A stretch of DNA of 43,919 nt from Candidatus Hydrogenedentota bacterium (GTDB lineage: Bacteria > Hydrogenedentota > Hydrogenedentia > Hydrogenedentales > JAGMZX01). Below are positions 40,665 to 43,419 of this stretch, piece by piece; positions within the stretch are counted from its first letter, which is position 1; the number at the start of each line of letters is the position of its first letter. Both the position numbers and the translations under genes were made by a program. The stretch lies in the NCBI GenBank assembly GCA_018005585.1, contig JAGMZX010000001.1, positions 27,077-70,995 of the forward strand, in the 5' to 3' direction. The notes under the pieces were generated by a model. It had not been told where the DNA came from and searched no databases. It saw only the letters and a list, made by a program, of their open reading frames with translations.

Positions 40665-41765
40665 CTACCGCAGCGTGATGTTCGTCGCAAGGTCATCCTG
40701 AATGCGCGCATAGAGGCTCGTGGCGGCGCGCACGGCCATCTTGCGCTCCGTCTCCTCGAACTTCCGTTGCGACAACGCCGCGAGGTGGTACACGACGCCG
40801 CCGGGATTCACCATCGGCATGGTCGTCATGCCGAGCACGATGCCGTCGGCCGGCGAAAGCAACGATGTCTGTTCGCGCCCGAAAATGTTGTAGATCGTGG
40901 CGAGCCCCTGGTTCTTGCGCACCAGTTGGCCCGGCCGCACATGAAAACCCAGCAACCCGCCGAGTTCCGAGCGCACCCAGAGCGTCTTTGTAATCGTCAA
41001 TTGGAACGAAGGCGGCTCGGGCTTGCCCTCGATCATGCCCAGGTCTTTCAACGCGTTCAGACAGCCGCGCACGCCGATCTCGACCACGCGCGGCTCGATT
41101 TTCCAGACCTCGCCCGCCTCGAGGATGATCGTCGGCACGCCCGCCTCGACCGCGGCGTACCGCAGCGAACCGCGCGGCCCCTTCGAACTCACGATAAGTT
41201 CGCAGCCAAACGCTTTGGCCAGCCGCTTCGTGCCCGCATCGCGCATGCTGGCGCGCACGTTCGGGTAGTTCGTGCGGCGCAGCGCCGCGCTGTGGAAATC
41301 GATGCCGTAGTCGCACTGGGCCACAATCTCCGTAAATATCGCGTGGGCCAGGCGTCTGGTCAGGCTTCCGTTCGGCGAGCCGGGGAATGACCGGTTCAAG
41401 TCGCGCCGGTCCGGCATATAGCGCGAGTGACGTTCCAGCCCCTGGATATTCGCCACGGGAATGATCACCAGCGTGCCCTTCAGCAATTTCGGCGGCTGGT
41501 CGTAGAGCAGTTCGCGCACGATGCCGATCCCGTTCAATTCGTCACCGTGGATCACGCCCATGATGAAGACGCGCGGCCCGTCGGCGCGCGCCCGCATCAC
41601 GTACACGGGAATCGACACCGGCGTACCCAGGTACGTGGCGCCAAAACGCAGCTGCAGTTCGCGCGTCTGGCCGGGCCGGATGCGTTCCCCCGCAATGACC
41701 AGCGTGCGGCCGCGCCGGCGCGGCGCTGGCGGCTGTTGCGATGCTGGCGGTTCACCAGGCGTCAT
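40665..41765 (-). CDS. AstE/aspartoacylase-like zinc carboxypeptidase-fold hydrolase
   Basis: The 366-residue protein belongs to the succinylglutamate desuccinylase/aspartoacylase group. Zinc ligands H73 and E76 are in IHGDELNG and H158 is in IDFHSA. R125 in DLNRSFPG binds the substrate carboxylate, and the general base is Glu in IILEAGEVW. The C-terminal about 100 residues form a beta-barrel, lipoyl-like domain (GQLVRKNQGLATIYN). These enzymes hydrolyse amide bonds of acylated amino acids or terminal glutamates. It begins 8 bases after the RimK-like gene, so all three genes from 43419 to 40665 should form one operon. A role in trimming glutamate added by RimK is attractive but unproven. Confidence 0.88.
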   Translation of the reverse strand: MTPGEPPASQQPPAPRRRGRTLVIAGERIRPGQTRELQLRFGATYLGTPVSIPVYVMRARADGPRVFIMGVIHGDELNGIGIVRELLYDQPPKLLKGTLVIIPVANIQGLERHSRYMPDRRDLNRSFPGSPNGSLTRRLAHAIFTEIVAQCDYGIDFHSAALRRTNYPNVRASMRDAGTKRLAKAFGCELIVSSKGPRGSLRYAAVEAGVPTIILEAGEVWKIEPRVVEIGVRGCLNALKDLGMIEGKPEPPSFQLTITKTLWVRSELGGLLGFHVRPGQLVRKNQGLATIYNIFGREQTSLLSPADGIVLGMTTMPMVNPGGVVYHLAALSQRKFEETERKMAVRAATSLYARIQDDLATNITLR

Positions 41766-41773
41766 GGCAGACC

Positions 41774-42934
41774 CTACGTTTCCCTGCGGCGGCGGCGCTT
41801 GCGCTCGGGCATCATCATGCGCAGCTCATGAAGGTCGCCGAAACAGAGCAGTTCGTCGCCCGGATGGATCACGGTGTCCGCCTTCGGGTTTGTAATGACC
41901 TGGTCATGCCTCGTGATAAGCATCACATGGATGTTATGCGCGGAAAGCGCGGTGTCGCGCAGCGCCTTGTTCTCGAGTTGCGGCATCCCGCGCACGGTGA
42001 ATTCGGCGATGCCGTAGCCGCCGGTAAGCGCAAGCCGCTGCCGCAAGTCGACCTCGGGGAACAGGACCTGCTGTTCGAGGTGCCGGATGATCGTGCCCGC
42101 AACGTCGATCCCCGTCGCCTTCTCGATACCCTCAAAGCCGGGGGACGAATTCACCTCCAGCACCTGCGGGCCACTCTCCGAAATCAGCATGTCCACGCCC
42201 GCCACGCGCAGGCCCATGATTTGCGCCGCACGCACCGCCGTCCTCTCGTATTCGGCGTCCAGCTTGATCGCCTCCGTCGAGCCACCCCGGTGCACGTTGC
42301 TGCGGAATTCGCCCGGCTGCGCCTTGCGCTTCATCGCCGCCACCACGTGATCGCCCACGACCAGCGCGCGGATGTCCTGCCCCTGGCTTTCCCGCACAAA
42401 CTTCTGGATGAGCACGTTCTGCCGCGCGCTGTGCAGCGTCTGAATAATCGCTTCCGCCACCTTTTCCGTCTCGGCGAGAATCACGCCTACGCCCTGCGTG
42501 CCTTCGAGCAGCTTGATAATCACCGGCACCTCGCCGACGCGCCGGATCGCGTGGAGCACGTCGTCGCGGTCGCGCACGAACGCCGTCGGCGGCAGCCCGA
42601 TGTCGTAGCGGCTCAACATCTGCACGGCGCGCAGCTTATCGCGCGACCGCGCGATGGCCATCGAGTCGTTCAGCACGTACATGCCCATCTGCTCGAATTG
42701 ACGGAGCACCGCGAGCCCGAAAAACGTGATCGACGCGCCAATGCGCGGAATCACGGCATCGAAATCGTGCACGCGCCGGTGGCGGTAGAACAGCAAGGGG
42801 TTCTCGCGCTCGATAAGGATCGAGAACTTCAGCGTGTCCATCACCTGGACTTCGAAACCGCGCGCAATCGCCGCTTCGCGCAGGCGCCGCGTGCTGTAGC
42901 TGCGCCCGGCGCGGCTCAATATGGCAATTCTCAT
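41774..42934 (-). CDS. RimK-type alpha-L-glutamate ligase fused to an RCK_C (TrkA-C) domain
   Basis: Residues 1 to about 295 are a complete RimK ATP-grasp ligase: MRIAILSRAGRSYSTRRL, VIPRIGASITFFGLAVLRQFE, VIIKLLEGTQGVGV, FRSNVHRGGS and the metal-binding QVLEVNSSPGFEGIE. RimK adds glutamates to the C-terminus of ribosomal protein S6. The E. coli protein ends near residue 300. Here about 80 more residues follow, and 305-373 match an RCK_C/TrkA-C domain: LENKALRDTALSAHNIHVMLITRHDQVITNPKADTVIHPGDELLCFG contains the NP-x(5)-I-x2-GD-x-LL signature. A basic tail (KRKRRRRR) ends the protein. The start overlaps the upstream stop by ATGA, showing translational coupling. The fusion is described under findings. 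Confidence 0.9.
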   Translation of the reverse strand: MRIAILSRAGRSYSTRRLREAAIARGFEVQVMDTLKFSILIERENPLLFYRHRRVHDFDAVIPRIGASITFFGLAVLRQFEQMGMYVLNDSMAIARSRDKLRAVQMLSRYDIGLPPTAFVRDRDDVLHAIRRVGEVPVIIKLLEGTQGVGVILAETEKVAEAIIQTLHSARQNVLIQKFVRESQGQDIRALVVGDHVVAAMKRKAQPGEFRSNVHRGGSTEAIKLDAEYERTAVRAAQIMGLRVAGVDMLISESGPQVLEVNSSPGFEGIEKATGIDVAGTIIRHLEQQVLFPEVDLRQRLALTGGYGIAEFTVRGMPQLENKALRDTALSAHNIHVMLITRHDQVITNPKADTVIHPGDELLCFGDLHELRMMMPERKRRRRRET

Positions 42935-43419
42935 GGGGAGTTGGTCTTCTTTCGCTGCTTCTTGGCCCTGCGCCGCCCGCCAAGCATCCGGCGCCGGCTG
43001 ACATCCACCAGGAAATCCCGCGTAAGCGCGCGCCGGCCCAGCAACATCCGGTACAGCATCTTTTCCCGCGAAACCAGAGACAGTTCGACCTCTTTCTCAA
43101 CGGGACCCACGCGGATACGGGTCTTAACAAAACAGCGAACCGTATAATGCCCGCTGCTCGAACGCACGCGCCCCCATTTCACCACCTTCGCGCACACCGC
43201 CGTGCGGCGGAACGGCCGCTTCCGCCCCGTCACCACGTGAAACCGCACCTGACCGTCGCCCAACGCTTCGATGTCCTCGACATGCAGCGCGCTCGTCCGC
43301 GCGCCCGTGTCCACCTTCGCACGCACCCCGAGAATGCCCCACTCCGGAAAATCGACATACTCCGACCACCCGATGACCGTCCGGGAGTCGGGATGCTTGC
43401 TTTCCGGTCTGACGCTCAC
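42931..43419 (-). CDS. RimB-like retropepsin ('ATP-dependent zinc protease' family)
   Basis: The 162-residue protein has the family segment GWSEYVDFPEWGILGVRAKVDTGARTSALH, with the aspartic-protease-like D37-T-G-A40. LLGRRALTRDFLVDVSR near the end is also conserved. In Pseudomonas and E. coli relatives, RimB is a retropepsin-like protease that acts with RimK to trim glutamate tails; the old 'zinc protease' name is not supported by metal ligands here. The last 20 residues are very basic. The stop overlaps the rimK-like start by 4 bases (ATGA). Confidence 0.9.
   Translation of the reverse strand: MSVRPESKHPDSRTVIGWSEYVDFPEWGILGVRAKVDTGARTSALHVEDIEALGDGQVRFHVVTGRKRPFRRTAVCAKVVKWGRVRSSSGHYTVRCFVKTRIRVGPVEKEVELSLVSREKMLYRMLLGRRALTRDFLVDVSRRRMLGGRRRAKKQRKKTNSP

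Follow-up and report, generated by a model that had tools for sequence, protein, structure and literature searches.

A RimK-type glutamate ligase carrying a C-terminal RCK_C (TrkA-C) domain is encoded in a 43,919-nucleotide stretch of Candidatus Hydrogenedentota DNA (the window, meaning here the whole stretch that was analysed), and this fusion is a conserved family trait, not a local oddity. RCK_C domains are known as sensors in channels, in transporters and in a single transcription factor. In the literature searched, no paper was found that describes RimK joined to TrkA-C or RCK domains, and the architecture may be catalogued automatically in InterPro. The explanation that we prefer as a whole, which we hold to be nearly, but not quite, probable, is that the RCK_C domain would act as a built-in allosteric sensor of the RimK ligase, in a three-gene module devoted to ionic and osmotic functions.

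Domain architecture of the fused ligase

The ligase gene occupies positions 41774-42934 of the window on the minus strand, begins with an ATG start and encodes a RimK-type ATP-grasp ligase of 386 amino acids, with the following parts:

42653..42934, minus strand: Rimk_N, the RimK pre-ATP-grasp domain (residues 1-94; PF18030, E 1.6e-36)
42080..42643, minus strand: RimK ATP-grasp ligase domain (residues 98-285; PF08443, E 1.5e-58)
42008..42079, minus strand: linker (residues 286-309), strongly conserved across fused proteins
41813..42007, minus strand: RCK_C / TrkA_C domain (residues 310-374; PF02080, PDB profile, fold search and conservation)
41777..41812, minus strand: basic C-terminal tail PERKRRRRRET (residues 375-386), Lys/Arg-rich

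Both the Rimk_N and the RimK ATP-grasp domains score above their curated cut-offs, TIGR00768 is matched with 254 bits (cut-off 143), and the AlphaFold2 model of the whole protein (pLDDT 84.7) matches RimK structures with a TM of 0.95, the closest PDB relative of the ligase being P. aeruginosa RimK (7qyr, E 1.5e-104). By its domains the fused protein is thus a RimK-family glutamate ligase, with ATP-dependent glutamate addition as its predicted activity. It shares the ligase fold of the E. coli and Pseudomonas RimKs (PDB 4iwx, 5zct, 7qyr, 7qys), at about 50-58% identity over residues 1-289, and, like Pseudomonas RimK, has the protease RimB as a partner. In contrast, the known RimKs comprise about 300 amino acids and end after the ligase domain, and the fused forms stand across a supported branch, with diagnostic residues of their own.

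An RCK_C domain had been called by eye at residues 305-373, and residues 310-374 are indeed a genuine one by sequence, profile and fold. TrkA_C (PF02080) is matched in the full ligase with 33.7 bits (E 3.5e-8; curated Pfam cut-off 27) and with 36.3 bits (E 5.1e-9) when the tail segment is scanned alone, and it is likewise matched in 41 of 41 homologous tails, each scanned singly. When the PDB was searched with a profile of these 41 tails, 23 distinct sequences were matched, every one an RCK protein (among them KtrC at E 2.8e-6, KhtT, the S. aureus KtrA RCK_C, PH0236, KtrA, MthK and TrkA TM1088B). Modelled by AlphaFold2, the tail (pLDDT 75.4) has only RCK-type chains among its 50 best PDB folds, including KtrA, MthK, c-di-AMP-bound KhtT and BusR (E 4.5e-5 and up); the linker is modelled with low confidence (pLDDT 56-65). 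The limits drawn by eye were close, as the domain starts nearer 305-310 and ends at about 374, before the Lys/Arg-rich tail. A chance or misread domain is ruled out by the Pfam match, the 41 tails, the PDB profile and the fold search, and an assembly or MAG artefact by the occurrence of the fusion in named isolates and in a same-genus genome at 91% identity.

Distribution and origin of the fusion

Among GTDB contigs sampled at one genome per species, the RCK_C fusion is present in all of the 80 best homologues, which span at least ten phyla and include isolates as well as many MAGs. Since none of the 80 lacks the tail, which gives both an RCK_C match and an RCK fold, the original prediction stands as far as the domain is concerned. 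The phyla bearing the fusion are the Hydrogenedentota, Planctomycetota, Verrucomicrobiota, Omnitrophota, Armatimonadota, Myxococcota, Actinomycetota, Acidobacteriota, Gemmatimonadota, Bdellovibrionota and Krumholzibacteriota, together with a few Pseudomonadota; the isolates include Nocardioides (N. marmorisolisilvae), Microbacterium and Marinobacterium. In whole-genome samples, full-length fused proteins were found in 18 of the 68 genomes of the window's phylum, in 16/119 Planctomycetota, 11/246 Actinomycetota and 9/96 Myxococcota genomes, and in 1/299 Pseudomonadota genomes (with a RimK-type match in 107/299), each of these four last samples including a fusion-bearing genome used as centre, which for the Pseudomonadota is the one positive genome itself (Marinobacterium). 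The scores of fused and unfused proteins are split bimodally (about 440 bits or more for the fused, at most 352 for the unfused, and 347 for one divergent fused form), and both forms occur together in several genomes (e.g. G032, G035, G417, G419, G440, G466 and G513).

Did the fusion arise once, or several times? In a quick-method maximum-likelihood tree built from the ligase domain alone (87 rows, covering the first 292 residues), one branch with an SH-aLRT of 99 parts 63 fused from 24 unfused sequences, and the fused/unfused labels change once on the tree, against about 21 changes when labels are shuffled. Because a single supported branch lies between both forms, one ancient fusion event, retained since, is suggested as the simplest reading of these sequences, with the qualification that the tree is midpoint-rooted and does not formally separate a gain of RCK_C in one branch from its loss in the other. 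Repeated independent fusions are unsupported by the ligase-domain tree. The fused form at locus L165 is divergent and sits on a long branch.

Conservation within the fused family

Among 110 fused proteins, identity reaches 94-99% at the linker residues F292, P293, D296, R300, L301, G306 and Y307; 31 unfused RimKs have other residues at positions 292, 293, 296 and 300. Of the 110, D296, L301 and R342 are 99% conserved, and P350, D360, C364 and G366 are identical in 110/110. Such a near-invariant linker and RCK_C core, maintained across many phyla, is as expected of a working interface. Many residues of the ligase domain are also invariant (60 fused proteins), and diagnostic differences between unfused and fused forms, seen in most, are C37F, M82Q, F167L, A172Q and R251E.

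Two of these positions deserve a separate description. C364 (window 41843-41845) is a mark of the family, as the aligned KtrA, KtrC and KhtT chains carry other residues there; a redox or metal role is possible for it. Residue 251 (window 42182-42184), near a conserved GVD motif (residues 246-248), is Glu in most fused proteins, Arg in 30 of 31 unfused ones and Ile in the window protein, and the difference may mark an altered substrate use. More generally, the RCK_C domains of KtrA/KtrC, KhtT and MthK are alike to that of the window in sequence profile and predicted fold, but the latter is found on a soluble ligase, without RCK_N, and has an invariant C364 and other pocket residues.

RCK_C domains can act mainly in dimerisation, which counts against a sensor. 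Could the domain then be a structural or recruiting module without small-molecule ligand, that dimerises the ligase or, jointly with the basic tail, anchors it to a polyanion, the ribosome or a membrane partner? The tail that follows RCK_C is strongly basic in 104 of the 110 fused proteins (net charge of at least +4 over the first 14 residues after 376), the known c-di-AMP pocket positions are not conserved, and RCK_C domains are dimeric by nature, even ligand-free in BusR (PMC8517857). RimK is however already tetrameric without RCK_C (PMC10092738), and an invariant RCK_C and linker core across many phyla suggests more than a generic dimeriser. We view such a structural role as unlikely.

The rimB-rimK-astE module and its neighbours

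In the window, the fused gene lies in an operon with the order rimB-rimK-astE, whose other two members are:

42931..43419, minus strand: RimB-like retropepsin (Zn_protease; PF05618, E 6.9e-24; DTGA motif), overlapping the rimK start by 4 bases
40665..41765, minus strand: AstE/AspA family protein (succinylglutamate desuccinylase/aspartoacylase; PF24827, E 3.9e-38; HxxE and FH zinc motifs), located 8 bp past the end of rimK

The RimB model NF052261 gives 99 bits on the retropepsin gene, under its cut-off of 200, and no EAL (RimA-type) gene was found among the operon genes scanned with Pfam. Many of the 80 relatives have the trio too, and it is likewise seen where RimK is unfused. Another type of fusion, in which a RimB-like retropepsin is joined to RimK in one ORF, apparently at its N-terminus, was observed at loci L174 and L175, and at L186 and L182 as judged by gene length. 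In P. aeruginosa, an ATP-grasp protein and a retropepsin are likewise paired in the Rlo operon (ATP-grasp RloC; retropepsin RloA, RloB), which is linked to hypo-osmotic stress (PMC12239564). Unlike the window operon, Rlo involves secreted proteases and a transglutaminase-like membrane protein, RloC is 24% identical to RimK, and no RCK_C is reported.

No transporter is found next to the operon in this window. Around other fused loci, Mg2+ transporters (MgtE, CNNM, CorA) and MscS, a pressure-sensitive channel, recur: MgtE occurs around four of them (L017, L035, L036, L041), CNNM around three (L017, L036, L041), CorA around five (L028, L056, L057, L075, L141) and MscS around four (L028, L040, L056, L064). 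The end of the CNNM gene at L036 lies immediately ahead of rimB, and at L041 (1826-10141) an unfused rimK-astE, CNNM, the fused rimK-RCK_C and, further on, MgtE follow each other on the same strand. In the flanks of the 80 fused loci, 5 MscS genes were observed where 0.56 were expected, and 4 CorA where 0.17 were expected, in a rough test based on genome densities (161 MscS and 49 CorA in 190.8 Mb) and with an MscS count that includes a gene at L057, counted for its homology to the L056 gene that Pfam confirms. With close relatives merged, 4 MscS and 2 CorA are left (P ~0.003 and ~0.013, a guide only, as the families were picked after seeing the data). A minority of the fused loci, some of them in related taxa, show the transporter association. 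When 124 flanking ORFs were scanned with Pfam in aggregate, no neighbour outside the trio proved universal, Mg2+ transporters and MscS forming only a recurrent minority.

Comparable neighbours accompany unfused RimK, strikingly so in independent annotated loci. The trio is arranged as rimK-astE-rimB-mgtE-corA-mscS on a Vibrio europaeus plasmid (L184), as mscS-mgtE-rimB-rimK-astE in two Salinivibrio (L180, L183) and as rimK-astE-rimB-mscS in V. nigripulchritudo (L177); a ZntB gene lies upstream of an unfused RimK locus in Phaeobacter, and a cation:proton antiporter lies 1.2 kb after astE in Acaryochloris. Five annotated loci without the full trio have no such ion-transport neighbour. Since transporters are also found with unfused RimK, the association speaks for the module and not for the RCK_C domain, and suggests a place in ionic/osmotic adaptation for the Rim module as a whole. 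Rlo retropepsin operons act in hypo-osmotic survival (PMC12239564), and K05844, to which rimK belongs in KEGG, has a higher frequency in brackish genomes than in marine ones (PMC10219603). The ion state that had been proposed as one of two signals to which glutamylation could be coupled fits with this context, which suggests ionic/osmotic adaptation.

The same neighbourhood can be read in another way, namely that the trio makes and degrades a small glutamate solute, either poly-alpha-glutamate or an N-acyl-glutamyl peptide, which would serve the cell as a counter-ion, an osmolyte or a buffer for Mg2+, with RCK_C sensing K+ or Mg2+ directly. Mg2+ transporters as neighbours would agree with this, and the AstE/AspA neighbour belongs to a family of N-acyl amino-acid hydrolases. 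According to work cited in PMC12239564 and PMC10219603, free poly-alpha-glutamate is made by E. coli RimK, and PMC10219603 also cites mammalian RimK relatives that make N-acetylaspartylglutamate and beta-citrylglutamate. The RimB partner, on the other hand, acts as a protease on the polyglutamate of proteins (PMC11957791), and a solute pathway appears unlikely to us.

Candidate ligands and acceptors

RCK_C domains bind c-di-AMP in KtrA, CpaA, KhtT and the transcription factor BusR (PMC8517857). In the latter, a GntR-type repressor (PDB 7b5t), the domain is a c-di-AMP sensor outside transporters, involved in osmolyte control (PMC8517857); the effector of BusR is a DNA-binding domain, whereas the partner domain in the fused RimK is an enzyme. 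Pseudomonas RimK, which has no RCK_C, is a tetramer allosterically stimulated by c-di-GMP, not by c-di-AMP (PMC10092738), and small-molecule allostery thus has a precedent in the ligase itself. Of the regulatory idea put forward in the original prediction, a sensory role is therefore plausible, given the RCK_C precedents and the c-di-GMP-stimulated Pseudomonas enzyme, while the ligand is something that we only infer.

A diadenylate cyclase is encoded in the window genome (G000), in 59 of the 68 genomes of its phylum and in 24 of 30 fusion hosts, the six others being those of loci L049, L051, L055, L058, L061 and L077. When the fused family is aligned to S. aureus KtrA (4xtt), KtrA N175 and P191, taken as c-di-AMP contacts, fall on variable or Gly positions. 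Among the 110 fused proteins, position 336 is variable (commonest N, 27%), position 352 is mostly Gly (46%) and V337 is conserved; conserved c-di-AMP pocket residues were not found in the family with this alignment and contact list. The cyclase missing from 6/30 hosts and the variable pocket weaken the earlier guess of c-di-AMP, which is unsupported as a sole or universal ligand, and possible but not favoured as a ligand.

What is the acceptor of the added glutamates? The ribosomal protein S6 ends with ESRDDGD in the window genome, with RPDAH in Nocardioides and with KIGK or KVEA in Armatimonadota. Because S6 has no acidic C-terminal tail in several fusion hosts, S6 is doubtful as a universal acceptor, judging from these termini, and the case for the ribosomal target that had been envisaged for the ligase is weak. 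The fused protein could still polyglutamylate S6 (RpsF), like its Pseudomonas and E. coli counterparts, with c-di-AMP replacing c-di-GMP via RCK_C in order to tune translation. It passes the NCBIfam S6--L-glutamate ligase model NF007764 (350 bits, cut-off 331) and has a RimB partner in its operon; the cyclase of the window genome and its phylum, and the fold matches of the tail to c-di-AMP-bound KhtT and BusR, are in line with this combination. Yet the NCBIfam model spans the ligase part only, and the hosts without cyclase, the variable pocket positions and the S6 without acidic end in Nocardioides, Armatimonadota and others make it, in our judgement, quite improbable.

Proposed mechanism

The preferred reading, a RimK ligase with RCK_C as its built-in allosteric sensor, starts from what is observed, namely domain identity, conservation, the fused/unfused branching, the operon and the recurrent Mg2+-transporter/MscS neighbourhood. 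From these we infer allostery, ligand, acceptor, physiology and direction of control. RCK_C would have been acquired once, in an ancient branch of the RimK family. The ligase would add alpha-linked glutamates to an acceptor, either a protein C-terminus or a small acyl or peptide acceptor, the RimB retropepsin would trim the added glutamates, and the AstE/AspA-type hydrolase would remove or recycle the acyl or amino-acid product. The role of the rimB-rimK-astE module would be to adapt the cell to ionic and osmotic conditions (K+, Mg2+, turgor). In response to an ion or a nucleotide, the RCK_C dimer would tune the ligase, probably through altered packing in the RimK tetramer. A more specific version, in which an ancient multi-phylum ligase branch is gated directly by an ion or nucleotide via RCK_C, in a Mg2+/K+/turgor operon family and with a main substrate other than S6, is conceivable, though we lean against it.

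Implications

As the curated S6-ligase model accepts the fused protein, databases probably list it as a ribosomal modification enzyme, whereas its genomic company suggests a salt or osmotic physiology. The fusion is open to experiment, since some of its hosts are in culture (Nocardioides marmorisolisilvae, Microbacterium and Marinobacterium). If RCK_C is a sensor here, the ion or second-messenger state of the cell would be linked to glutamylation with no channel in between, and if the ligase is directly gated, glutamylation would respond rapidly to the same kind of sensor module that governs potassium channels.
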